From NCBI GenBank assembly GCA_030654015.1, contig JAURYI010000076.1, positions 1 to 64,000 on the forward strand: a DNA stretch of 64,000 bases, in the 5' to 3' direction. The position numbers and the translations under genes were made by a program. The notes under the pieces were generated by a model, which was not told the DNA's origin, searched no databases, and saw only the letters and a program-made list of their open reading frames with translations. Numbering within the stretch: the first letter of the stretch is position 1; each line of letters opens with the position of its first letter. This DNA comes from Methylococcales bacterium (GTDB lineage: Bacteria > Pseudomonadota > Gammaproteobacteria > Methylococcales > Methylomonadaceae). Shown in pieces: positions 1 through 12,595 of the stretch.

Positions 1-82
1 CCATCTCAATCGCTTCGGACTGTTCGAGTTAAAAGAGCGAAATCCACTGCCAGTAGACTATGAAATTATGTTTGGAATGTAG
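1..82 (+). CDS. C-terminal tail of an unidentified protein (partial)
   Basis: The second forward frame is open from the window edge to a TAG at 80-82 and gives 26 residues ending in Asp-Tyr-Glu-Ile-Met-Phe-Gly-Met. Its composition is protein-like, but it is too short to identify. It lies about 50 bases from the point where the neighbouring GGDEF-EAL gene on the other strand loses its homology, so it may belong to whatever DNA was joined there. A transposase tail is possible but not shown. It could also be a chance open frame. Confidence 0.35.
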   Translation, partial: HLNRFGLFELKERNPLPVDYEIMFGM

Positions 83-135
83 GTGCAATAGGGCTTACAG
101 AGGACTAATAGCAATTTACGCACGAATCCTTACGC

Positions 136-1494
136 CTAGCCATTTAACGGGTCTTGCCAACGCACCAAGGCTTCCGCACCGACAATGCGCCCTGTGTTAA
201 TATCGACTTGGGGCTGATAAAACACCCGCAATTCACCTTGATTGATACCGCGTCGTAAACGCACTTCAATGTCCATGCGCAGGCGTGCCGCTTGCGTAAT
301 GGCGACAGAAAAGTATTTAAAACACCCGCGCCCTTGGGATTTGGCGTGATACAAAGCACTGTCTGCCTGTTGCAGTAGTTGTTCGGGTTCATCGCCGTGG
401 TCTGGATAGAGACTGATGCCTACGCTTGCACCAATGCGGACTTCGATATTTTCCGATAGTTGCCACGGTTCGCTTAACACATTAATGATGTCATTGGCGA
501 CTAATGCGGCATCTTCAGGTTGCGACATATCTTCCAGTAAAATGGTAAATTCATCTCCACCTAATCTGCATACGGTATCAACACCGCGCAAACGCGAGCT
601 GAGACGTTGGGCGATTTGTTGCAGCAATTCATCGCCTGCCAGATGTCCGAAACTGTCATTGACTTCCTTAAAACGATCTAAATCCAGCATCAGCAGGGCG
701 AACATTTTTTGTTCACGTTGTGCGATTTTGAGCGCGTGTTCCAAGCGCGACAGCAATAATAATCGATTGGGTAAGCGAGTGAGCGGGTCGTGATGTGCCA
801 GAAAATCGAGATGTACTTCCGATGCTTTAATCTTGGAAATATCAGCAAATACACCGACATAGTTGCTTACCTCGCCTGATTTATCAGTCACTGCACTGAT
901 ACTCAGGAGCTCAGGATACACTTCACCATTTTTGCGCCGATTCCAGATTTCACCTTGCCAATGACCCGTCATGACGATGCTTTGCCACATTTCACGGAAA
1001 AATTCGGCGTTATGGCGACCCGAGCGTAATAAACTGGCGCGTTGACCTATTGCCTCCGCTTCCGTGTAGCCCGTAATATCGGTAAAAGCAGTATTGATGT
1101 GGGTAATGCGTAACTGTGTATTGACCACCATGACACCATCACGGGTATTTTCAAAGATAGTAGCCGCCTGACGCAGGCGAGTATCCGTGATTTTGCTTTC
1201 AGTGATGTCTCTTACACCAATGACATAAGCCTGTGTACCATGCCACACAATGGGCGCAGAGCGTAATTCTGCCCAACCGATACCGCTGGGACGAACCAGA
1301 TTGATTTCTTGTGGAATTGTGGCACTGGGATTGATGGGAATACCCAGTGTTTTGCCGATTAGGTATTCTCGTTCAAAGATGCGTTCCGCACTTTGATTGG
1401 CATAAAGTACTTTGCCCAAGCTATCTACCATGACGACACCATCAGTAATAGCATCAAGTATGAGATGGAGGTTGTCGTGAATTTCTTTAGGCAT
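136..1494 (-). CDS. PAS-PAS-GGDEF diguanylate cyclase with truncated EAL domain
   Basis: A cytoplasmic c-di-GMP signalling protein of 452 residues. Two PAS sensor domains (about 10-95 and 105-220) precede a GGDEF domain (about 228-390). The active-site GGDEF is intact, and an RxxD inhibitory site (RGVD) sits exactly five residues before it, so cyclase activity with product feedback is likely. An EAL phosphodiesterase domain begins (YQPQVD, then the E-A-L of GAEALVRW) but stops right after DPLNG. Roughly 220 residues of the usual domain are missing, and downstream bases do not continue it in any frame that I could follow. The gene starts 31 bases after the response regulator-KaiB gene on the same strand, so the two are probably co-transcribed. 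The protein may now be a pure cyclase. Confidence 0.85.
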   Translation of the reverse strand: MPKEIHDNLHLILDAITDGVVMVDSLGKVLYANQSAERIFEREYLIGKTLGIPINPSATIPQEINLVRPSGIGWAELRSAPIVWHGTQAYVIGVRDITESKITDTRLRQAATIFENTRDGVMVVNTQLRITHINTAFTDITGYTEAEAIGQRASLLRSGRHNAEFFREMWQSIVMTGHWQGEIWNRRKNGEVYPELLSISAVTDKSGEVSNYVGVFADISKIKASEVHLDFLAHHDPLTRLPNRLLLLSRLEHALKIAQREQKMFALLMLDLDRFKEVNDSFGHLAGDELLQQIAQRLSSRLRGVDTVCRLGGDEFTILLEDMSQPEDAALVANDIINVLSEPWQLSENIEVRIGASVGISLYPDHGDEPEQLLQQADSALYHAKSQGRGCFKYFSVAITQAARLRMDIEVRLRRGINQGELRVFYQPQVDINTGRIVGAEALVRWQDPLNG

Positions 1495-1525
1495 AGTAAA
1501 TGACTCGATTTATGAGGTATTCATT

Positions 1526-2209
1526 TCACATCACAATAGTATCTGAACCAGCATCGTGTTGAGAGGTAATCGCCGCGATGATGGACGGCATTTTCGATAA
1601 ATCACCTAACACGCGCAACACGGGTTCGGGTAATTCGCGTACCAGCATGGGGGTTGCAAATACATCATTCGCCAGAGCTTTTTCCGGTACATACAGCACT
1701 TCAATCACCTCTAATTTCCATTCTTCTGGTTGATACGTTACCTTTAAAACAGCACTGAGCCGATCAATAAATTGTTTGAATTCCTCATTCAGCGACACGA
1801 CATATAGAGTTAATATCAGTTTGTGGTGCTTTTTTTCTGGCTCCGCAATAACAGAACTGACAATTTGTTTAATCTGTGTCGATGATAACGGTTTACTGGC
1901 TATTTGAAAGCGCAACCCTTCATCATGAGCAATTTTGAGTTGATCCATATACTCGTTGGCAAACGCAGTCACAACGTAAATGTTAAGGCTGTCATCAATC
2001 AACTTTAACCGCCGCAAAGTTTCAACGCCGTCAATACCCGGCATACGCAAATCGAGAAAAATCAAATCGGGACGGTTTTGCTTGACCATTTCGATGCCTT
2101 GTAAGCCGTTCTCAGCTTCATGCACCTCATAACCAGCATCTTCCAGTATTAAACTGAACGCACCGCGTACAGCAGGGTCATCATCAATTATCAGTATCTT
2201 GTGCATCAT
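1526..2209 (-). CDS. response regulator receiver fused to a KaiB-like domain
   Basis: 227 residues. Residues 1-115 form a CheY-like receiver with the acidic pair near D9-D11, phospho-acceptor D53 (LIFLDLRMPG), T81 and K106 (SKPL). Residues 130-220 match the KaiB fold: a beta strand LILTLYVVS, then EVIEVLYVPEKA, then the diagnostic cis-proline segment FATPMLVRELPEPVLRVLGDLS. KaiB in cyanobacteria binds KaiC in the circadian clock. Non-cyanobacterial KaiB-like proteins are linked to stress and to histidine-kinase signalling. No KaiC gene lies in this window. The likely partners are the downstream GGDEF protein (same operon) and the divergent partner-switch genes. The domain calls are strong; the partner and output are inferred. 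Confidence 0.85.
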   Translation of the reverse strand: MMHKILIIDDDPAVRGAFSLILEDAGYEVHEAENGLQGIEMVKQNRPDLIFLDLRMPGIDGVETLRRLKLIDDSLNIYVVTAFANEYMDQLKIAHDEGLRFQIASKPLSSTQIKQIVSSVIAEPEKKHHKLILTLYVVSLNEEFKQFIDRLSAVLKVTYQPEEWKLEVIEVLYVPEKALANDVFATPMLVRELPEPVLRVLGDLSKMPSIIAAITSQHDAGSDTIVM

Positions 2210-2352
2210 AATATCTTTAGTGTTGTGCGATTTAGCGTGAGTAGATTATACAGTCTGAGCCAACTTTAAAGAAATTAGGGTTTTCAACATCTATTTTCCA
2301 TCTTTCAGTTATTACGACATTTTATTTTCATTAAAGTGTCACACTGTCCAGC

Positions 2353-2358
2353 TATAAT
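2353..2358 (+). promoter_or_regulatory. candidate -10 element before the CBS-phosphatase gene
   Basis: A perfect TATAAT lies 43 bases before the ATG at 2401, in the divergent spacer between the KaiB fusion and the phosphatase gene. No good -35 hexamer is seen at 17 bases, so this is only a plausible start site. Confidence 0.4.
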
Positions 2359-2400
2359 TTCCCTTATTAAATTGGCACACACACTTAATTTGAATATTTT

Positions 2401-4482
2401 ATGATTGAGAGGCAAAAAAGTAGTCATCCTTCACGTTCCTTGGCATTTTCCGCTCCCTGCGTACACGAATTAATGTTGCAGGTTATAGCCATTCCGCTCA
2501 GCACCCACGTTTTAGATGTACTCACGCTGTTTCAGACTCATGCGGATATACCTGCATTTCCTGTTATAGACAGTAATAATCAATATTTCGGCATTATTAC
2601 CCGTCGTAATTATCTTAATATCATGAGTCGTGCTTATGCGCGTGAATTGTTCGCTAATAAAGATCTCGTTACGTTACTGAAAATTAATCCTGATATTTTT
2701 GTCGCGCCGTTGATAGTGAATACCGATGACCGTATCGATCAGGTGATGCTGGATTTTTTGAGCCATGATCCTGAAATGGCTTTTGAAGCTCTGCCTGTTA
2801 TCGGTGCTACGGAGGGTATGGCTATTGTTAAAATAGCCGACATGATGTTGCAGTTATCAAAATCACAGCACTCACTGATTGACACAATGGAACAGATGAG
2901 TGTGCGCTTAAAAGAAGAAGTCGCCAGTGCCGCCACCCTGCAACGCAATTTATTACGCCCTGAGCGCATTAACCTCCCCGGTGTACGCGGTTTATCAACA
3001 CTGATTACCTCCAGTGAAGTCGGTGGCGATTTTTATGATTATTATGTCGTGGATGAGCGTTGGGTTGTCATGCTGGTCGGTGATGTCAGTGGTCACGGTG
3101 TTGCGGCAGGAACAATGGTAAGTGCTGCTAAAGCAGGTGTGAATCTGTTGGAAGCGGACAAAGAAAAAGAACCGCACAAAATTCTGGCACGGCTTAGCGA
3201 TACTATTTTACATACTGCACGCCAATCGCTGTTAATGACGATGGTTGCACTATGCCTCGATACTAAAACGGGCGAACTGACATACTCCAATGCAGGACAT
3301 CAATTTGCGTATGTGTATCGCTCTATTACAGGAATGCTGGATGTGTTGGAAGTCGGCGGTTTACCTCTGGGTAAAGAAGAAAGCATCGTGTATGAACAAT
3401 GCCAGACTGAAATGGATGTCGGGGATCGTTTATTTCTGTATACCGACGGTATAGTTGAAGAAGAAAATGCCGATAGCGAATGTTTCGGTTATGAACGCTT
3501 GGAAGAATTACTCGCTATTCATGCTGAAAGCGATCCCGAAACACTACGCGACAGTCTATTGGAAAGTTTAGCGTCCCATGTCGGACGCAGTAATTTTGAT
3601 GATGATGTGACTATTTTTTTCGTAGAACATTTTGAACGCCATCACAAAAAAACCAAAATGCTTGAGACAGAACAACACGAATTTGATTTACTCCGCATAG
3701 TGGACAGTTTTTATCGCGCTGAACCCAATTCCATTGCGCCGAATATCATGCGGCAAAATGTCGTTTTTTTGGCAGATGGTCATTTTTCCGATTTAATACC
3801 CAGCCTGTCAAAGCAAGGTGTGCGGCGGATGCTGCCGCGCAATCACGCCATTAACGCGCAATTGGGCTGGAATAATTTACTAAAACAACACCAGCATATT
3901 ACCAACGATGATTTAGTCGCCTATCTGCCGCACCCAACCCACCACCGCGAATTTTCTTTCAGCCACAGTGATGACAAAGCCTTTGTCTTGAACGAGGTGG
4001 AATCATGGTTGCAGGATATTTCTCTACCCAATCCAGACCGTTTAGATGCCGTCGTTTTATTGCTGGATGAATTGATTGAAAACGGGCTTTATGCTGCACC
4101 GCGTGACGGTAAAGGGCGACAGCTTTATGCCAAAGGTACGGTACGCGATTTGGGTGCAGGCGAAACATTACGTTTAAGCCTATCAATTCAGGAGCATCTG
4201 CTGGGCATTTCTCTGATAGACAACTGGGGAACACTCACGCCGACTGTATTTCTTAATCGGCTGACCCGTCACATTCAAGGCAGCGGCTTAGATGCTGGTG
4301 TGGGCGGCGGCGGACTCTATTTAATATGGCGTATGTCCGATTATTTGCAATTGCGCGTCATGCCTTACAAACAAACTCAAGTGTGTGCTTTTTTGGATTT
4401 AAACAATCCTTTTGATGATGAAGCTGAAAATGGCTTTCAATTTCTTTATCACAACGAAGTTCACGAAACCGTCAACAGCTAA
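2401..4482 (+). CDS. CBS-domain, RsbU/SpoIIE-type phosphatase and anti-sigma-like ATPase in one protein
   Basis: 693 residues with three modules. Residues about 20-150 resemble a CBS pair (FPVIDSNNQYFGIITRRNYL), which usually binds adenine nucleotides. Residues about 180-410 are a PP2C-like SpoIIE/RsbU serine phosphatase with the metal-binding motifs EVGGDFYD (near 208), GDVSGHG (near 227), YTDGIVE (near 346) and DDDVT (near 401). Residues about 520-670 look like a GHKL ATPase of the RsbW type, with DELIENG (N box) and a glycine-rich GVGGGGLYL lid. The protein therefore carries both the phosphatase and the kinase of a partner-switching pathway. The STAS partner follows 20 bases downstream in the same operon, with an apparent ribosome site ACGGAGC before it. 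It acts in the cytosol; the final target is unknown. Confidence 0.85.
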   Translation: MIERQKSSHPSRSLAFSAPCVHELMLQVIAIPLSTHVLDVLTLFQTHADIPAFPVIDSNNQYFGIITRRNYLNIMSRAYARELFANKDLVTLLKINPDIFVAPLIVNTDDRIDQVMLDFLSHDPEMAFEALPVIGATEGMAIVKIADMMLQLSKSQHSLIDTMEQMSVRLKEEVASAATLQRNLLRPERINLPGVRGLSTLITSSEVGGDFYDYYVVDERWVVMLVGDVSGHGVAAGTMVSAAKAGVNLLEADKEKEPHKILARLSDTILHTARQSLLMTMVALCLDTKTGELTYSNAGHQFAYVYRSITGMLDVLEVGGLPLGKEESIVYEQCQTEMDVGDRLFLYTDGIVEEENADSECFGYERLEELLAIHAESDPETLRDSLLESLASHVGRSNFDDDVTIFFVEHFERHHKKTKMLETEQHEFDLLRIVDSFYRAEPNSIAPNIMRQNVVFLADGHFSDLIPSLSKQGVRRMLPRNHAINAQLGWNNLLKQHQHITNDDLVAYLPHPTHHREFSFSHSDDKAFVLNEVESWLQDISLPNPDRLDAVVLLLDELIENGLYAAPRDGKGRQLYAKGTVRDLGAGETLRLSLSIQEHLLGISLIDNWGTLTPTVFLNRLTRHIQGSGLDAGVGGGGLYLIWRMSDYLQLRVMPYKQTQVCAFLDLNNPFDDEAENGFQFLYHNEVHETVNS

Positions 4483-4502
4483 TAAAAACGGAGCAATTTA
4501 TT

Positions 4503-5657
4503 ATGTTACAAATTCAACCACCACCCTCAACACATGAATCAGTACAACAATTTACCCTCATGGGTACGATTGATGTCGAAGCCATTGCCAGTTTGGAAAC
4601 GCTGTATGTGTTGCCTGCCGACAGCATCGTAGAATTGGATTTCGCTTTAGTGCAACGTGTTAATTCTATGGGATTGGCGCAGATACTCAAATTATTTGAA
4701 CACTGGCAAAAACAACAGATCACTATCAGTATTACCAATGTAAATCGTATGATTGGTGTATTGTTTAAAATGACAGGTTTAACGCGTTTTCTCGATGATG
4801 GACAACAAACAGCCCCCGTTTCCCCTACGGCTGTTGCAAAATCAGCCCCTGTTGCGAACATTCAATCAGAACAGCGAGCCGACGACGGCAAACTCAAGCT
4901 GTGGGTACACGCGCAAAACAGTCATCAAATGAATGGCTGGTACTTTTTCAATACTTATCTGCAACGCCATACAGGACGAGATATACAGCTGGAATTAGTT
5001 CATGGGGCGATGAGCGAACAGGGCAGTAAAATCGAGGATATGGACATCGTGTTTACCAAGCCGTTTGATGCCACGCGCTTATTGATAGAAAACCAATTCC
5101 GCCCCTTATTACATCCGATTAATCAAACCGATGAAGTGACTTTATTAGTCCGCGCCGATGATGCACGACAAAAAATCAGCGACTTTCTCGGTGGTAAAGT
5201 GATTACCGCGACTGCTGATAATTTCGTCTATCTATTAGGTCGTTTCTTATTGGAAGAATCGGGCAGTACACAGTGGGATTATAATTTTTCCGGGCATGAC
5301 ATCAAAGCCCTGCAAATGTTGCTCAAAGGTCAGGCAGATATGTTGTTTCTGTCAACCGAAACCTATCGCGGCTTATCCAGTTTAACGCGCAATATGCTAC
5401 GCGAAATAGATCAAAGCGAAACGGGTTTTGCGTTTCATTTATTTTGTGCCGCGCCGCACTGTACCGATGTGGGCAATGCGGTTACCGAAGTATTGTTGAA
5501 TATGGCGCAGGACAGCCAAGGGCGACAAGTGCTGGCTGATTTAGGTTTAGAAGGCTGGAGCAGACCAAAACAAGATGAAGTCGATATGCTCGCTATGTTG
5601 TTTAACCGCTATATGGCTGATGTGCCACAAGACGCTATTGCGGTAGGTTCAAAATAA
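4503..5657 (+). CDS. STAS-domain anti-sigma-antagonist fused to a PhnD-like substrate-binding domain
   Basis: 384 residues. Residues 1-100 are a STAS domain of the SpoIIAA/RsbV kind. The phospho-acceptor serine is probably in VNSMGLAQILKLF, the substrate expected for the upstream kinase/phosphatase. After an Ala/Pro/Val linker (about 105-125), residues 130-370 resemble a periplasmic phosphonate-binding-like (PhnD/TAXI) fold, with strands such as KLKLWVHAQNS and DIVFTKPFDATRLL and a helix-rich end. There is no signal peptide, so this half probably works in the cytosol as a ligand sensor rather than in transport. It is the last gene of the operon; a hairpin follows the stop. The STAS call is firm; the ligand-domain assignment rests on general pattern and is moderate. 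Confidence 0.75.
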   Translation: MLQIQPPPSTHESVQQFTLMGTIDVEAIASLETLYVLPADSIVELDFALVQRVNSMGLAQILKLFEHWQKQQITISITNVNRMIGVLFKMTGLTRFLDDGQQTAPVSPTAVAKSAPVANIQSEQRADDGKLKLWVHAQNSHQMNGWYFFNTYLQRHTGRDIQLELVHGAMSEQGSKIEDMDIVFTKPFDATRLLIENQFRPLLHPINQTDEVTLLVRADDARQKISDFLGGKVITATADNFVYLLGRFLLEESGSTQWDYNFSGHDIKALQMLLKGQADMLFLSTETYRGLSSLTRNMLREIDQSETGFAFHLFCAAPHCTDVGNAVTEVLLNMAQDSQGRQVLADLGLEGWSRPKQDEVDMLAMLFNRYMADVPQDAIAVGSK

Positions 5658-5663
5658 AACGCA

Positions 5664-5686
5664 TGGTGCAGTTTCATACTGCACCA
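5664..5686. terminator. hairpin between convergent genes
   Basis: A perfect nine-base stem (TGGTGCAGT / ACTGCACCA) with a five-base loop lies between the stops of the STAS gene and chrA, which converge here. No clear U-tract is present, so it may act as a weak bidirectional terminator. Confidence 0.6.
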
Positions 5687-5691
5687 GCACC

Positions 5692-7041
5692 TTACGCCAG
5701 TAATAAAGAAGACAACCATCCCGCCGCGCCACATCCTGCAATCACAGGAATAATACCGACTTTATAACGAAATAATGCCAGTGATGCCAAAACCGTGATT
5801 AACGCGGCAACGGCATCAAACGCACCTGTTACACCCTGCGGGAAAAGAATATGCCCTGCAAAAAATACCGCTAAATTAACAATCACACCGACCACAGCGG
5901 CTGTAATTGCCGATAACGGCGCGGTAAATTTCAAATTGCCGTGGGTTGATTCAATCAATGGCGCACCTGCCAAGATAAACAAAAAACTGGGTAAAAAAGT
6001 GAAATACGTCACAACTACTGCCGCTATCACGCCCGTTATTAATGCCGAATCAGCACCTAGCGGCAACGCATTCCAGCCGCCCAAAAAGCCGACAAACGTG
6101 ACAATCATAATTAACGGACCGGGTGTCGTTTCACCCAATGCTAAACCATCCATCATTTGGGTCGCGCTCAACCAATGAAAATGCTCTACCGCACCTTGAT
6201 ACACATAAGGTAATACCGCATACGCGCCGCCAAACGTCAGTAATGCGGCTTTGGTAAAAAACCAGCCCATTTGTGTCAGCGCACCGTTCCAGCCATATTG
6301 AGCGCATAGAAAACCCATGACACTGCCCCATAACAGCAAGCCAATGCCGACAATCATCAGCAAGCGCGACCAGCGAAATTGAGCATGATCTGGAATCGGG
6401 GTGTCATCATCAATCAGTGCTTTGCCAAAACTGTGTTTTGTCGCACCGTGTCCGCCACCTACAGCAAAATATTGCGGTGTAAATCGTCCACCCAGCGCAC
6501 CGATTAAGGCGGCAATCAAGACTATCAACGGAAACGGCGCGTGCAGGACAAAAATCGCGCCAAACGCTAATGCCGCTAACGTCCATAACACGGCATTTTT
6601 CAATGCTCGTGAACCAATGCGGTAGGCGGCAAATAATACGATAGCCACTACCGCAGATTTAATGCCATACAGTACCGCAGACACCGCTGGCAGTTGCCCA
6701 AAACGCAGATATACCCAGCTTAACAAAATCAACAGCACCAGCGAGGGCAAAATAAACAGTAAGCCAGCGATAATACCGCCTGTGGTACGGTGCATTAACC
6801 AGCCCAGATACGTCGCCAATTGTTGTGCCTCAGGGCCGGGCAATAACATACAGTAATTGAGTGCGTGCAAAAACCGCCGTTCAGAAATCCACCGTCGCCG
6901 TTCGACCAATTCTTCGTGCATGATAGCGATTTGTCCCGCAGGGCCGCCGAAGCTGATAAAGCCCAGTTTCAACCAAAACAAAAATGCTTCTTTGATACTG
7001 ACGGAGGGTGGTGGTTGATTATTTTGAGGCGATTCGCTCAT
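5692..7041 (-). CDS. chrA: chromate transporter, ChrA family
   Basis: 449 residues with about ten to twelve membrane segments arranged as two homologous CHR halves. The N-terminal half carries FWLKLGFISFGGPAGQIAIMHEELVERRRW and NYCMLLPGPEAQQLATYLGW. The second half repeats the pattern with FFTKAALLTFGGAYAVLPYV and GLALGETTPGPLIMIVTFVGF. This is the long two-domain form of the family, an inner-membrane exporter of chromate. It follows a small secreted-protein gene with a one-base TAATG overlap, so the two are translated together. Substrate is assigned by family; some members transport other oxyanions. Confidence 0.9.
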   Translation of the reverse strand: MSESPQNNQPPPSVSIKEAFLFWLKLGFISFGGPAGQIAIMHEELVERRRWISERRFLHALNYCMLLPGPEAQQLATYLGWLMHRTTGGIIAGLLFILPSLVLLILLSWVYLRFGQLPAVSAVLYGIKSAVVAIVLFAAYRIGSRALKNAVLWTLAALAFGAIFVLHAPFPLIVLIAALIGALGGRFTPQYFAVGGGHGATKHSFGKALIDDDTPIPDHAQFRWSRLLMIVGIGLLLWGSVMGFLCAQYGWNGALTQMGWFFTKAALLTFGGAYAVLPYVYQGAVEHFHWLSATQMMDGLALGETTPGPLIMIVTFVGFLGGWNALPLGADSALITGVIAAVVVTYFTFLPSFLFILAGAPLIESTHGNLKFTAPLSAITAAVVGVIVNLAVFFAGHILFPQGVTGAFDAVAALITVLASLALFRYKVGIIPVIAGCGAAGWLSSLLLA

Positions 7042-7538
7042 TACTCAGCCCCCGCACCAAGGAATATGCTGGTGACTTTATGTTGTTTGAAAGTAAAAAC
7101 TAAGCCGCCATAAATAGAACCTGCCACAAACATTTGTTTGTTGCTTTCGGCATCAGCGGCTTTGTCATGACCGTAGGCTTTCATCACGGCTTGTTGACTG
7201 CTGCCGATGTGAATGCCGCGTTTGGTTTTTAGTACGCTAGGTGCGGTGACGGTAATACCATCAACTGATTTACTGCCGCTTTTTTGTACTGAACTCATGC
7301 TGAAACTCAGCCCGCAAGCAGGATAATGCCAGACTTGATGATAGATACCATCCGCGCCCCACAATTGTTCTTCTTCCCGTTTTAACGGGCAAGATACTTT
7401 CTTTTTCAAATCGGTTTCAGACAGCCCCATTTTAAAATCACCTAGTTTTTCTTCATTAAGCAGTGAAAATTCATCGGCAACGGCAGGAAGTACAGCGACG
7501 AGTGAGAACAGCATTAGCAGTGGAATTTTTTTAAACAT
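7041..7538 (-). CDS. small exported protein of unknown function
   Basis: 165 residues with a clear signal peptide (MFKKIPLLMLFSLVAVLPAVADE, cleavage probably after AVA). The mature part has two cysteines (SCPLKR and PACGLSF) that could pair in the periplasm, and ends in a beta-rich segment (SIYGGLVFTFKQHKVTSIFLG). I do not recognise the family. Its stop overlaps the chrA start by one base, so it heads a two-gene operon. A role with the transporter is guilt by association only. Confidence 0.65.
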   Translation of the reverse strand: MFKKIPLLMLFSLVAVLPAVADEFSLLNEEKLGDFKMGLSETDLKKKVSCPLKREEEQLWGADGIYHQVWHYPACGLSFSMSSVQKSGSKSVDGITVTAPSVLKTKRGIHIGSSQQAVMKAYGHDKAADAESNKQMFVAGSIYGGLVFTFKQHKVTSIFLGAGAE

Positions 7539-7641
7539 AGTGCCTTCTTGTCATAAATTTAGTTTTTTATGGATTTCCATAGCGTGGCTATTGCTGTTAA
7601 TTCGGCAACAGCTGAAATGGTTTTACGCCTGTGAAAAATGG

Positions 7642-10600
7642 TTAATTGGTTTTTAACGATAATAAACTGGTAATCTCATTGTCGTCTCTTTTGGGGTCAA
7701 TCACGGTATCGAGAATAAACACTTGTGTATTCGGTACGCCTTGTTGAATAAGATAACTGGCAATAGCTCGCGCTCGTTGCACTGCCAGTTTTTTAAGTCG
7801 TGATTGTTCGCGGCTGAGTGAGATACTCAGATGTTGTTTGGCAATCTCGTAAAAATCGCCCGATTTGGCATCAATCAGTTCAGGTGTGCCGAATAAGGAT
7901 TTTTTCGCCAGTTTGGGGAATTTTTCGATGAATAATTGTGCCAGCAGACGTTTGTAATCGGCATCTGATAATTCGACATATTCCGCCAGAATTTTTTTGT
8001 CGCTGTCTCGGTTGATTTCCTCTGCGCGTAGTGTTTTCAGTTGGTCATAGAGTGCGGCTTCACGCATGGCTGTCCAGTCCTGTTTTTCAAATGCCGTGCC
8101 TTTGATGCTCAAGGTTAGCACTGAATGGTCTTTGAGTTCCTTGGCTAAGGCGGTCAATTTTACATATTGGGCTTTGTTCAATACGGCACTACCCGCGCTG
8201 AAGGTGATGGTGCTTAGGTCTTCATCGCTATCAGCCAGAGAGGCGAGGGCGCGAAACGGTGAGCTGATGACTTTACTGAGTGAATTTGCCAAGGCATCCG
8301 CGATAATCGCGCCAATATCAAACTGCGGGGCATTCAAATTTCCCGTAATCGGCACGTCTATTTTAATTTTACCATCGCTGTCTTTCAGCAATGCCACCGC
8401 TAATTCCAACGGTAAGGAGACCGCATTGGGATTATCGACTTTTTCACCCAGTTCAAATTGATCTATCAATATATTGTTGCTGGCAGTCAGTTCATCATTG
8501 ACCACTTTGTACTTTAAACCCAGTGACATTTTGCCTTTTTCAACTTTATAACCCGCAAATTCCACCATATAGGGCGACATTAACGGCATCGGCATTCCTT
8601 TAAAATTCAAATTTAAATCGTAATCCCCCAGATAAGGGCTGATAGATCCATCAATATCAACGGGGGAAAAATCGTAAGCGTTGCCTTTCAGGGATACTTT
8701 AATGGTGGACTTTTTCTCGGAGGAAATATCGCTCGCGCCACCGTCTAGGCTTTTGACTTGCGCGGAAAACGGCATAATTAATGAGTTGTCAGAAAAATCA
8801 GATGAGCCATCAATCACTTGTACTTTATTCAATTTAAAATAGGGTTGCTGCACTTTGGCGACGGTTTTAACGGCTGTACTGTTGGGTTCAGGAGCAGTAA
8901 TGAAAATGTCGGAGAAGTTAATGGTTTTGTCTTTTCTGATGATAACTCTGGCATAAGGTTTATCAATAATCTGTGCGTCGGCGGTATAGCTGTCTTTTTG
9001 TAAATTCACCGCTACGCCTTTTAAGGAGAGATTTTTCCAAGTGATAAAGTCTTTGTGGCGTTTTTGGTCGCGGGTGATGAATTGATTGATGTTGCTGTCA
9101 CCCGTAAAGAGAAGATCCAGTGGTTTAGTGTCCGACATTGCCATTGTCAGTTTGCCCGTCATACTCAGTTCACCTTCAATAATGTCCAAATGCGCGATTT
9201 TTTCCAGATAGGATTGAAACGGCTCTAAGTTAATCGTTTTAGCATTAATTGCTAAATGACTGACAAACGGTTCAAAGATTGCATCGCCGTTGACTTCGAT
9301 TGTTCCTGTGTTATTCACACCTACATCTAACCGAAAAGGCAGTTTTACGCCTACTTTATTGCTATAGCCTGTCAGTTTGAAGTTGACAGGTTTCAGCGTC
9401 ATCATCACGGGTTTACTGAGTGTTTTATCTTCAAAGGTCGTGGCAAAACGGGTCAGGTCGATGTGCCTGATATTGATAGCCCACGGTGGTGTTTTTGCTT
9501 CGACAACGGGGCGAGTTATTGTTGTAGTTTTGATTTTGGGGTCAGTGAACAGTGTTTGATAATTGAACTGTCCATCTGGGTTTAACCAAGTACGAAAATC
9601 TGCACCGTCAGCGATGATGGAATCAATGCCAAGGCTTTGTGTGTTCAGATTAAAGTTAATGTCATTGACTGTTAAGCTGGGAATATCAACCAGTGGTTTA
9701 GTCTGATTTTTTTCAAATAACTGTATATCACGACTAACCAGTTTGCCTTGCTTTGCTATAAATTGCACATTCTGGTTATCGGTCATAATATCAAAACTGC
9801 TTGCCACTGATATGGCTGGAATGTTAACGGCGGTATTTAAATAGGTAAGTTCTACAGCATGAGCATCCGTGGTGCTGTTATTGATGAGAAATTGCCAATT
9901 TTTCTGCCCATAACTGATTTTAAACGCCGCTTGGTGGTTAAGTTTGGGTATTTTTATATGATTTTTAGTTGGTAGGGTTTGGGAAAATTCAAAGCTATTC
10001 AAGTCAATTGCAGAGTGCTTGCCTGTAAATAACCAAGTGTCATCGACGTTGGTTATTTTAATATCGGTTTCGACACTAAAATCAGTCGCCTTAGCAATAA
10101 TGGGGGTTTTGTTTTTTTCGGCATACCGGAAATCATGTAGTGAGAGTTTGCTTTTATCGGCAGTTAAGGTGAAATGCTGGTTGTCATAACTGAGATGATA
10201 ATCACCGTCAAAGAGTTCATAGCCACTCAAACTAAAGCCCATGGGCTCTGGAAAAGTCACCGCTAACAGGTGTTGCAGTTTAATATTATTGAGCGTGATA
10301 TGTCCTTTTGATTGTAATGGCTTAAGAGTGATTTCACCTTGCCACTGTGCTTGACCACCTGATTCTAGTTCCAGTTGTAACATAAACTTCGATTGTCTAT
10401 CAGCGAAGATACTGAGATTTTCAGCGGTCAGATTAATGGGCTGCACAGTCTCTTTGATAACGGGATCTTCCCATATTAATTTACCAGTCGATAGTGATAA
10501 CTGAGCAATAGTAATCGGGAGAGCAGCAGTTTGTTGATTATCTGCTTTTTTAGTAAATAAACTGTCAAAGTTAAACGTACCATTTTGTTGTTTAGCAATG

Positions 10601-10932
10601 CGTACCACAGGTTTGACTAAGGTAAGTTTATCAATTACTACCGCCGATTGTGCGAAAGATTGCGTGATGTTCACCTGCATATAAGCACTATCAACACTGG
10701 CAAATGGCTTGCCATCGGTTTCTTGAAGTGCAAAGTTCTGTAGTTGAATAGACAGGGGCAAAAGTGCGAATTGCACACTTGCAAGCGAGGCTTTTCTTCC
10801 CGTTTCCTGCTGAACAATAGCGAGTATTTTCGACTTTAAAAAGGGCTGCACACTGTAAACCAGCAATGCCAATAGGCTACTCACTATAAGCAAAGTTATT
10901 GTGATGCGAGTGAGTAAACGTTGGTTTATCAT
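7642..10932 (-). CDS. DUF748/AsmA-like envelope protein
   Basis: 1096 residues. A single N-terminal membrane segment (about 8-30) is followed by a very long beta-rich region typical of AsmA-like proteins, with repeated short strands and phrases such as VVIDKLTLVKPVVRI and IDVPITGNLNAPQFDIG. The part around 760-900 (YLGDYDLNLNFKGMPMPLMSPYM, FELGEKVDNPNAVSLPLELAVALLKDSDG) is the hallmark of DUF748 proteins. The last 180 residues (FSAGSAVLNKAQYVKLTALAKEL) resemble the start of an OmpA-like peptidoglycan-binding unit. AsmA-like proteins are thought to move phospholipids across the periplasm or support outer-membrane assembly. It stands alone, with 100-230 bases of spacer on either side. Confidence 0.8.
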   Translation of the reverse strand: MINQRLLTRITITLLIVSSLLALLVYSVQPFLKSKILAIVQQETGRKASLASVQFALLPLSIQLQNFALQETDGKPFASVDSAYMQVNITQSFAQSAVVIDKLTLVKPVVRIAKQQNGTFNFDSLFTKKADNQQTAALPITIAQLSLSTGKLIWEDPVIKETVQPINLTAENLSIFADRQSKFMLQLELESGGQAQWQGEITLKPLQSKGHITLNNIKLQHLLAVTFPEPMGFSLSGYELFDGDYHLSYDNQHFTLTADKSKLSLHDFRYAEKNKTPIIAKATDFSVETDIKITNVDDTWLFTGKHSAIDLNSFEFSQTLPTKNHIKIPKLNHQAAFKISYGQKNWQFLINNSTTDAHAVELTYLNTAVNIPAISVASSFDIMTDNQNVQFIAKQGKLVSRDIQLFEKNQTKPLVDIPSLTVNDINFNLNTQSLGIDSIIADGADFRTWLNPDGQFNYQTLFTDPKIKTTTITRPVVEAKTPPWAINIRHIDLTRFATTFEDKTLSKPVMMTLKPVNFKLTGYSNKVGVKLPFRLDVGVNNTGTIEVNGDAIFEPFVSHLAINAKTINLEPFQSYLEKIAHLDIIEGELSMTGKLTMAMSDTKPLDLLFTGDSNINQFITRDQKRHKDFITWKNLSLKGVAVNLQKDSYTADAQIIDKPYARVIIRKDKTINFSDIFITAPEPNSTAVKTVAKVQQPYFKLNKVQVIDGSSDFSDNSLIMPFSAQVKSLDGGASDISSEKKSTIKVSLKGNAYDFSPVDIDGSISPYLGDYDLNLNFKGMPMPLMSPYMVEFAGYKVEKGKMSLGLKYKVVNDELTASNNILIDQFELGEKVDNPNAVSLPLELAVALLKDSDGKIKIDVPITGNLNAPQFDIGAIIADALANSLSKVISSPFRALASLADSDEDLSTITFSAGSAVLNKAQYVKLTALAKELKDHSVLTLSIKGTAFEKQDWTAMREAALYDQLKTLRAEEINRDSDKKILAEYVELSDADYKRLLAQLFIEKFPKLAKKSLFGTPELIDAKSGDFYEIAKQHLSISLSREQSRLKKLAVQRARAIASYLIQQGVPNTQVFILDTVIDPKRDDNEITSLLSLKTN

Positions 10933-11162
10933 AAAATTTGAACAGTCCGTGCGCTTTGATAGTGGCTATTTTAAACAATAAAGTTGACCATTCACCGTTT
11001 TTTAGACAGTAATTTAAAAATCAGTGAGAGTTACTGTTTAAATAAAGTTATTTATTTTATGGCACGTTCGCTTTTTTGTGCTTTCAAGGCTACGCTTAGT
11101 GTTACTATTAAGATATTGCTTGTAATCATTATCTAATTATTTAACTTACTTCGGAGGAAAAA

Positions 11163-11756
11163 ATGAGATTTACACTGATTATCTTGGGATGTTTTGTTTC
11201 TTCCTATGTATTTGCGGCTAACAGTATTTATAAGTGTGTTGATCCTGCGGGTAAAAAGAATTATCAATCCAGCCCCTGTCGTCCAGGATTTTCCATCATG
11301 ACGCTCAATATCGTAACAGGTGGCTCTACTAATGTGGATGAGGAAAAAAAGCAGCAGGAGTTGAAACAAAAAACAGAGCAGGCGAAGCTCGAAGAGCAAA
11401 AAATGACCGAACAACAGCGAGCGGAAAGGCAGGCTAATATCAATAAAGAAGCGATTGCTGAAAGTGAAAACAATCAGACATTGATTAGAAGTGAGCCGCA
11501 AAAATACTCAGCATTTGCTATTCCACCTTACATACCCGACAAGTTATCCGATATAGTCAAACCCTTTCAGGACAGACTTGCCTCTATTGAACGCTTTAGA
11601 AGGTCGGCGGCTCAAAAAGCATTGGCTTCTGGTCAATGTGAGCGTGTTGAAGCAGCGGAACTGGATGTTAAAAGCACGAAAGAGATGCTGCATTTTTTAG
11701 TCAATTGCAGTACAGGTAAAACCTTTAATTTTACTGAGCAGGATTTGCAAAAGTAA
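11163..11756 (+). CDS. exported DUF4124-like protein with coiled coil
   Basis: 197 residues. A signal peptide (MRFTLIILGCFVSSYVFA) is followed by the DUF4124-type opening NSIYKCVDPAGKKNYQSSPC, in which two cysteines likely form a disulfide. Residues 60-105 are a charged Glu/Lys/Gln-rich coiled coil; the C-terminal third has two more cysteines (GQCERVEA, VNCSTGK). A strong ribosome site, GGAGG, precedes the ATG. The gene lies eight bases upstream of the dehydrogenase gene and is probably co-transcribed with it. Function in the periplasm is unknown. Confidence 0.75.
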   Translation: MRFTLIILGCFVSSYVFAANSIYKCVDPAGKKNYQSSPCRPGFSIMTLNIVTGGSTNVDEEKKQQELKQKTEQAKLEEQKMTEQQRAERQANINKEAIAESENNQTLIRSEPQKYSAFAIPPYIPDKLSDIVKPFQDRLASIERFRRSAAQKALASGQCERVEAAELDVKSTKEMLHFLVNCSTGKTFNFTEQDLQK

Positions 11757-11764
11757 TCACCCTC

Positions 11765-12595
11765 ATGACAATAGCAAAAACGATATTAATCACAGGTTGC
11801 TCCTCAGGCATTGGTTATGATGCCGCTGTCGCGTTAAAAAATCGAGGATATAACGTCATTGCAACCGCACGAAAGCCAGAAGATGCAGCGCGTTTAGGTA
11901 AACAAGGCTTCACCAGTCTGCAACTGGATTTGGCAGACAGTCAGAGTATCCAACAAGCAGTCACACAAATGCTGGAACTGACAGATGGACGTTGTGATGC
12001 ACTATTTAATAATGGCGCGTTCGGTCAGGCAGGTGCTGTAGAAGATTTAAGTCGTGATGTATTGCGCTATCAATTTGAAACCAATTTATTTGGTACACAT
12101 GAATTAACCAATTTACTGCTTCCTGTGATGCGTAAGCAAGGACATGGGCGTATTATTTATAACAGTTCGGTATTGGGCTTGGTCGCTATGCGTTATCGCG
12201 GTGCGTATAATGCCAGTAAATTTGCCTTGGAAGGCTTGGCGGATACCTTGCGTTTGGAACTGTATGGCACGAATATTCATATTTCTCTGATAGAGCCAGG
12301 CCCGATTTTAACCAATTTCAGACAAAACAGTTTAGCGTTGTATAAGAAGAATATTGATGCTAAACACAGTGTGCATCAAGCAGCCTATACGGCTATGGAA
12401 GCACGCTTGGAAAAAGAGGGTGCGGCAGTGATGTTTACGTTACCTGCTGAGGCGGTGACTAAAAAAGTCATCCACGCATTGGAAACCAACCGCCCTAAAA
12501 TACGTTATTACGTTACCTTTCCCACTTACTTATTCGCCACACTGAAGCGTATCCTGCCCGTGTCTTGGCTGGATAATCTGCTCAGAAAAGTTTGA
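11765..12595 (+). CDS. short-chain dehydrogenase/reductase
   Basis: 276 residues of classical SDR type. The cofactor motif TGCSSGIG is at 10-17, NNGAFG (the NNAG position) near 82-87, the catalytic Ser near 134-135, Tyr148 and Lys152 (YNASK). ARKPED after the second strand suggests NADP(H) preference. An active-site tail with a GPILTNFR motif follows. Substrate cannot be told from sequence; relatives act on steroid-like alcohols, retinol or quinones. It converges with the UPF0182 gene downstream across a hairpin. Confidence 0.85.
   Translation: MTIAKTILITGCSSGIGYDAAVALKNRGYNVIATARKPEDAARLGKQGFTSLQLDLADSQSIQQAVTQMLELTDGRCDALFNNGAFGQAGAVEDLSRDVLRYQFETNLFGTHELTNLLLPVMRKQGHGRIIYNSSVLGLVAMRYRGAYNASKFALEGLADTLRLELYGTNIHISLIEPGPILTNFRQNSLALYKKNIDAKHSVHQAAYTAMEARLEKEGAAVMFTLPAEAVTKKVIHALETNRPKIRYYVTFPTYLFATLKRILPVSWLDNLLRKV

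Follow-up and report, generated by a model that had tools for sequence, protein, structure and literature searches.

A response regulator fused to a KaiB domain in Methylococcales, a candidate for two-component signalling without KaiC

Introduction

KaiB (PF07689) is a circadian clock protein, a free-standing chain of about 100 amino acids that, according to the available text of PMC5520375, occurs in Bacteria and Archaea only alongside full-length KaiC. Related domains are found inside two-component proteins, namely SasA and other KaiB-like sensor histidine kinases; in SasA the domain is N-terminal, binds KaiC and belongs to a kinase (PMC6378743, in the part available). Cyanobacteria also have elongated KaiB proteins, among them KaiB-4, with an N-terminal extension of about 150 amino acids (PMC5520375; PMC10808063); the accessible sections of PMC5520375 describe this extension as restricted to cyanobacteria and as having no recognised domain. 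The KaiB of Legionella (Lpp1115, 4kun), a free-standing chain of 91 residues, is not circadian and has been implicated in stress responses (PMC10808063, accessible sections). Outside cyanobacteria, kaiBC genes mostly precede a gene for a histidine kinase or a GGDEF/EAL protein (PMC3164672, as far as its available text goes).

Here we describe a protein that shares features with each of these and matches none. It is encoded in the window, by which we mean the whole stretch of 64,000 nucleotides analysed, from the assembly of a Methylococcales bacterium. Its KaiB domain has the family and motifs of the clock protein and a model nearest to KaiB crystal structures, but it is the C-terminal domain of a response regulator, falls on a separate branch of the KaiB tree and comes from a genome in which no KaiC was found. 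Like SasA it places a KaiB-type domain in a two-component protein, although at the C terminus and in a response regulator, and SasA ranks well below KaiB in the fold lists for its model. Like elongated KaiB it has a long N-terminal extension, which here is a canonical receiver. The fusion family thus departs from both statements in the available text of PMC5520375, that KaiB occurs only with KaiC and that the extension lacks a known domain. Titles and the beginnings of abstracts in the open-licence literature yielded no description of a receiver–KaiB fusion, and no paper on Methylomonas with KaiB was found in that literature. Receiver–KaiB proteins are likely to be listed already in domain databases.

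Results

The fusion protein has an intact receiver and a KaiB domain

The gene and its parts are as follows.

1526..2209, minus strand: response regulator–KaiB fusion, 227 aa, a single open reading frame with Pfam Response_reg and KaiB matches both above cut-off
1850..2200, minus strand: receiver (REC) domain, residues 4–120, by Pfam and by residue conservation in 44 of 44 proteins
2051–2053, minus strand: codon of the phospho-acceptor D53, within the receiver together with T81 and K106
1565..1822, minus strand: KaiB domain, residues 130–215, by PDB sequence search, comparison of a model with KaiB crystals, and tree
Residues 185–190 and 202–205 (numbering of the fusion): KaiB-domain motifs ATPMLV and GDLS

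A preliminary description of this DNA, based on the letters alone, had placed the gene correctly and had proposed that a receiver and a KaiB domain are joined in one protein with D53, T81, K106 and the ATPMLV segment intact. This proposal was borne out, and the gene lies on the minus strand. Pfam matched Response_reg at residues 5–117 (3.8e-25) and KaiB at residues 153–206 (4.7e-9; 36.3 bits against a curated cut-off of 27). When the C-terminal 105 residues alone were searched against PDB sequences, the top 11 rows were all KaiB, from 4kso (E 9e-9, spanning residues 9–91 of the query) to Legionella KaiB, the last and weakest (E 2.8e-4), and SasA was absent from the 16 rows at E ≤10. FATPMLVR and LGDLS of the fusion align with LATPTLAK and IGDLS of KaiB. 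We aligned 44 fusion proteins (the window's and 43 other ORFs, with one genome represented twice): D53, T81, K106 and G202 never vary among them, nor do T and P of the ATP at 185–187; its A is kept by 43 of the 44, and position 203, in GDLS, has D in 37 proteins and N in the remaining 7. The protein thus has the phospho-acceptor aspartate and the conserved threonine and lysine of a response regulator, and Pfam found neither HisKA nor HATPase_c in its 227 residues, so that it does not have the architecture of SasA. Compared with four relatives, both domains show pN of 0.09–0.15, far below a pS of 0.51–0.71 that is itself near saturation. Rfam gave nothing at gathering score in window positions 1–12000, and a promoter and terminator scan of 1450–2500 gave nothing above chance.

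The preliminary description had named an unrelated thioredoxin-like fold as the outcome that would speak against KaiB. The fold list of a full-length model consisted of receivers throughout and was uninformative on the KaiB part, so we modelled that part separately as a single chain (AlphaFold2 from four sequences; mean pLDDT 76.5, weakest at model residues 53–56 with pLDDT <50). The first 17 Foldseek rows were KaiB crystal chains, with a best E of 7.8e-6 and 24–31% identity, at a TM score of only 0.47–0.57; fold-switched KaiB, SasA and Legionella KaiB followed at E 0.05–0.3 amid unrelated rows. VIA-align scored KaiB crystals at Z 6.9–7.3, KaiB from a KaiCBA model at 6.1, SasA at 5.3 and the best unrelated chain at 5.1; the best alignment (Z 7.3, with an rmsd of 4.3 across 88 residues) is only moderate, as are all with Z <8. 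KaiB crystal structures therefore head the matches and the unrelated fold did not appear, and sequence and model together identify the C-terminal part as a genuine KaiB domain. The model resembles the ground state. This is no proof of the real state, as the four-sequence alignment is too shallow to tell, and single-sequence AlphaFold2 wrongly predicted KaiB-4 as ground state (PMC10808063, in the part available).

A giant kinase gene accompanies the fusion

In relatives, the gene upstream of the fusion encodes a protein of about 1700 aa with a protein-kinase-like part, AAA_16, a long linker, GAF, HisKA and HATPase_c. At 41 of the 43 fusion loci outside the window, the fusion is preceded on its own strand by this kinase gene or by one homologous to the histidine-kinase part (a few loci are cut by contig ends, and Methylomonas lenta is included twice, as L051 and L195), with a median gap of 34 bp and a largest gap of 705. 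The two exceptions are L172, at a contig edge, and L169, in genome G175, whose kinase lies elsewhere (C20:20015–25105), making this a second genome, besides the window's, with the two genes apart. Of the 46 fusion genomes, 44 have a kinase match of at least 60% identity, against 12 of 255 others (p 3e-39, a value that ignores kinship; matches at E ≤1e-280, two candidates scored per genome, some partial). Several of the matches in those 12 genomes are partial, and one of the genomes is G300, which has a split form of the fusion.

The window's own genome has the kinase whole on contig C118, 1735 aa long and 81% identical to that of G007, with the histidine-kinase motifs HEINNP and GTGLGL. Where active protein kinases carry HRDxKPxN, the window's genome and two relatives have HGGVKPHN in the protein-kinase part (L161 6131–11338; P0005; P0006). 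Because the catalytic Asp of that motif is lost, this part is probably a pseudokinase, tied to a histidine kinase that looks active. HstK-type dual kinases similarly combine protein kinase, histidine kinase and GAF in one protein (PMC1262709, as far as its available text goes); the partner kinase here differs in having a probably inactive protein-kinase part and, in addition, AAA_16. Gene linkage and intact motifs make the giant kinase the likely phosphodonor of the fusion.

Two output types share one PAS domain

The gene that follows the fusion at the 43 loci encodes a PAS-GGDEF-EAL protein in 30 cases and a PAS-HisKA-HATPase_c protein in 11 (L030, L031, L165–L168, L171, L173–L175 and L177), and is missing in two (G003 and G006). 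GGDEF and EAL were called by alignment and motif, with Pfam checks in L027 (P0007), L052, L169 and L170. A terminal receiver is present in 8 of the 11 kinase-type proteins (L031, L167, L168, L171, L173, L174, L175 and L177); L165 and L166 have none, and L030 is cut by a contig end before any receiver could show. The shortest kinase-type protein, L175, is 41–68% identical to five GGDEF-EAL proteins over approximately residues 6–110, and four others are 26–41% identical to GGDEF-EAL proteins over about 230–290 residues, with one pair at 43% over 93. By these alignments the first PAS domain is constant, while the remainder of the protein is exchanged between GGDEF-EAL and a histidine kinase. We infer that this PAS is the likeliest contact site for the fusion. 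Because a GGDEF-EAL gene is missing from that place both at the 11 kinase-type loci among the 43 and at G003 and G006, c-di-GMP is not the general output. The second histidine kinase could itself be the phosphodonor at the 11 loci that have it.

The same two kinds of next gene follow kaiC or kaiB in non-cyanobacterial kaiBC clusters (PMC3164672, available text), from which the fusion cluster differs in lacking KaiC and in having the giant kinase gene in the upstream place. We considered whether the KaiB domain might act independently of phosphate and serve only to dock the receiver to the kinase, for example to AAA_16, with no target downstream. In favour, no partner is as constant as the kinase (44 of 46 genomes), whereas the downstream gene varies in type and G003 and G006 lack it; moreover, KaiB in its fold-switched state attaches to the CI ATPase portion of KaiC (PMC6378743, in the part available). 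Set against this, a downstream gene with the same N-terminal PAS is conserved at 41 of 43 loci, and we regard such a purely docking role as quite unlikely.

Split forms and the tree of KaiB domains

G090 and G300 have a similar operon in which KaiB is a gene of its own, and their complete KaiBs group with the fusions (99/96). The split KaiB is adjoined by a first-half KaiB domain placed in front of a receiver (G090 L203 6597–7106; G300 L200), which scored 27.2 and 16.7 bits with a custom KaiB profile; Pfam detects no half-KaiB domain in L203. By alignment the half domain comprises beta-alpha-beta, and it is possibly an out-of-phase tandem duplication that was kept in two genomes.

We built a tree of KaiB domains that left out the two half-KaiB rows and response-regulator rows more than 93% alike; it has few columns, long branches and unsettled bootstrap values. 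Fusion and split KaiBs together are separated from KaiC-linked KaiBs by a branch of length 3.29 (support 99/96). L170 is placed, though weakly (93/20), outside the split forms. A group of the fusions alone takes two changes, with L170 and the split KaiBs basal, and one change is seen in 2% of bootstrap trees. The fusion may have had a single origin, with which the starred branches are compatible.

Most genomes that have the fusion show no KaiC above cut-off

The window's genome (3.66 Mb in 141 contigs, 99.96% complete) contains the fusion as its only KaiB match in a genome-wide search. KaiC was not found among the four candidates scored: the best match of the family has an E of 3.0e-17 and stays below the 408-bit cut-off, and, judged by frame length, the PF06745 matches appear to be RadA/RecA/DnaB-like. 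The genome check for kaiC that the preliminary description had called for thus goes against its clock-like switch. A place in a Kai clock, KaiBC or KaiABC, is rejected for the window's genome on the grounds that no KaiC was found. The accompanying remark that the organism is not known for a Kai clock applies to the window's genome, but it does not extend to the order, since KaiC exceeds the family cut-off in 53 of 301 sampled genomes (four candidates scored per genome).

KaiB matches are carried by 89 of the 301 order genomes and the fusion by 46, of which 42 were read in sequence and four (G093, G165, G184 and G194) were assigned by score and frame length only; within the genus, four of seven relatives have it. 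A KaiC scoring above cut-off is encoded by 13 of the 46, compared with 40 of the 255 genomes that lack the fusion (p 0.056). Of the 33 fusion genomes without it, 31 are at least 90% complete (G004 and G228 are below this); among the 33, G233 encodes a KaiC-like ATPase that scores 244 bits. We note two further KaiB arrangements in the order. In a number of genomes with KaiC, for example G183:C29, G186:C1 and G189:C33, a tandem kaiB pair adjoins KaiC. A divergent group of free-standing KaiBs (L201, L202 and L204, from G064, G118 and G108) lies near large GGDEF-EAL genes; it has support of 100/98 on a very long branch, and G064 has a KaiC gene just upstream.

These data bear on whether the protein is the output of a timer, in which the KaiB domain would bind KaiC and the receiver would tune that binding within a KaiBC system. 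The domain is a genuine KaiB, the order has both KaiB and KaiC genes, 13 of the 46 genomes with the fusion also encode KaiC, so that a link with it may exist there, and the kinds of gene behind the fusion are those found behind kaiB in kaiBC clusters (PMC3164672, available text). However, 33 of the 46, the window's included, have no KaiC over cut-off, the association with KaiC is weak compared with the very strong one with the kinase, and the long supported branch sets this KaiB apart from the KaiC-linked ones. We therefore judge a role in a KaiBC timer very unlikely.

Beyond the order, a Comamonadaceae MAG among the matches listed shows the same gene arrangement, with a shorter histidine kinase of 576 aa followed by a fusion that is 58% identical and then by a GGDEF-EAL gene. 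A draw of 369 genomes from the class gave one match at 1e-35, the window's own (at most seven candidates per genome, few genomes of the order sampled). In a draw of 398 genomes from the phylum, 38 had KaiB matches; none of those below 50 bits lies in a frame longer than 200 aa except the window's own, and six stronger matches (59–97 bits) lie in frames of 201–360 aa. A scan of named genomes gave at least 80 loci, and the spread outside the order is undersampled. Four stretches of viral contigs match a pattern and none codes for a relative of the fusion; a protein search of plasmids gave no match at 1e-20.

The operon is broken in the window

The surroundings of the fusion in the window differ from those in relatives.

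1..141, no strand: end of a Tn3-family transposon that cuts the EAL part, with a 38-bp terminal repeat at 104–141
142–146, no strand: 5-bp target duplication ATTTA, repeated on both sides of the transposon insert
136..1494, minus strand: 452-aa PAS-PAS-GGDEF protein whose EAL domain stops after ~41 residues (660 aa in relative G007)
2210..2400, no strand: intergenic, with a divergent gene on the far side, where most relatives read have the kinase directly upstream
2401..4482, plus strand: CBS–PP2C (SpoIIE) phosphatase with a weak HATPase_c_2-like C terminus, by Pfam; probably outside the system
4503..5657, plus strand: STAS and phosphonate-type substrate-binding domains, by Pfam; probably outside the system

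The GGDEF neighbour that the preliminary description had reported does lie on the same strand as the fusion, but it is really a GGDEF-EAL protein shortened by the transposon. The truncated frame retains both PAS domains and the GGDEF domain by Pfam, and the remainder of the EAL domain is at G000:C90:118–747. A full Tn3-family transposon is present on C128 (3839 bp, with a transposase of 994 aa at 1.1e-138, a resolvase of 208 aa and 38-bp ends), and such ends recur at several contig ends (window 1–146; C128, C90, C111 and C76).

The kinase of the window's genome adjoins a GlnRS gene, named by sequence, as it does in G003, G006 and G007, while the fusion and the GGDEF gene adjoin the CBS–PP2C/STAS pair. 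The preliminary description had read the divergent pair as a phosphatase/kinase/STAS partner-switch module beside the fusion. Phosphatase and STAS are present and divergent; the 'kinase' is only a sub-threshold HATPase_c_2 match of the phosphatase (16.4 bits against 27.4), and the STAS protein has in addition a periplasmic domain of the phosphonate-binding type. In four relatives (G003, G006, G007 and G011; a partial copy in G004 was left out) the pair has a different upstream gene each time and never the fusion, and blastp among these four upstream genes gave no mutual match. These neighbours therefore look incidental, and among the compared genomes the fusion stands beside the pair only in the window's genome, where the junction may be a misassembly. 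The STAS protein (4503–5657), an unusual soluble sensor-antagonist, lies beside CBS–PP2C in those four relatives too. An association with a partner-switch stress module of the Rsb/SpoIIE type was rejected by this neighbour comparison.

That the receiver–KaiB protein controls the divergent pair as a stress switch is accordingly hard to credit. The two are adjacent and divergent, with 191 bp between their starts, and both are regulatory; yet the pair's upstream gene differs in all four relatives, and it is the kinase and the PAS protein that are the conserved neighbours of the fusion.

The damage to the operon also raises the question of whether the fusion is a functionless relic in this genome. 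The kinase is on another contig and the EAL domain is interrupted by a Tn3-family element, and pN/pS would bear no trace of a recent break. On the other hand, fusion and kinase are both whole, pN is low relative to pS in both domains of the fusion, and G175 likewise holds kinase and fusion apart. We consider loss of function unlikely. With the operon split and one gene cut, the pathway in the window's genome may be decaying, even though the fusion gene itself bears no sign of this.

Discussion

We favour, at somewhat better than even confidence, a two-component phospho-switch that is independent of KaiC, in which the KaiB domain is a protein-binding output and, in the window, controls c-di-GMP. 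The giant kinase would sense a signal and autophosphorylate on histidine; the phosphate would pass to D53 of the fusion, as gene linkage and intact motifs suggest; and phosphorylation would alter the presentation or folding of the KaiB domain, which would then bind a partner. The likeliest partner would be the protein of the next gene, bound through the N-terminal PAS to which the observed domain exchange points. Where that protein is of the GGDEF-EAL type, as in the window, the outcome would be a change in c-di-GMP. KaiC would be unnecessary, a statement that holds for gene content rather than for function. The kinase of the window's genome would have to work from its separate locus, and with EAL lost the pathway there, if still active, would lean towards c-di-GMP synthesis. 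The phosphorylation-controlled switch of the preliminary description thus survives as the natural reading, now with a likely kinase, while its clock-like part is unsupported in this organism.

A more specific version is that the phosphorylated receiver gates a fold switch of the metamorphic KaiB joined to it and so carries a histidine-kinase signal of methanotrophs to the PAS of exchangeable outputs, either c-di-GMP enzymes or a second kinase. We offer this as a doubtful but conceivable extension. Contact between receiver and KaiB has a precedent in CikA, whose pseudo-receiver binds KaiB (PMC12632262, available text). If true, the fusion would be an intramolecular version of the receiver–KaiB contact in the cyanobacterial clock, taken out of the clock.

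With receiver and KaiB covalently paired, whether phosphorylation controls the KaiB fold switch becomes directly testable. Our analysis suggests that in this methanotroph, and in many bacteria related to it, KaiB has been recruited to everyday signalling, a case of a clock part working, or having worked, outside a clock.
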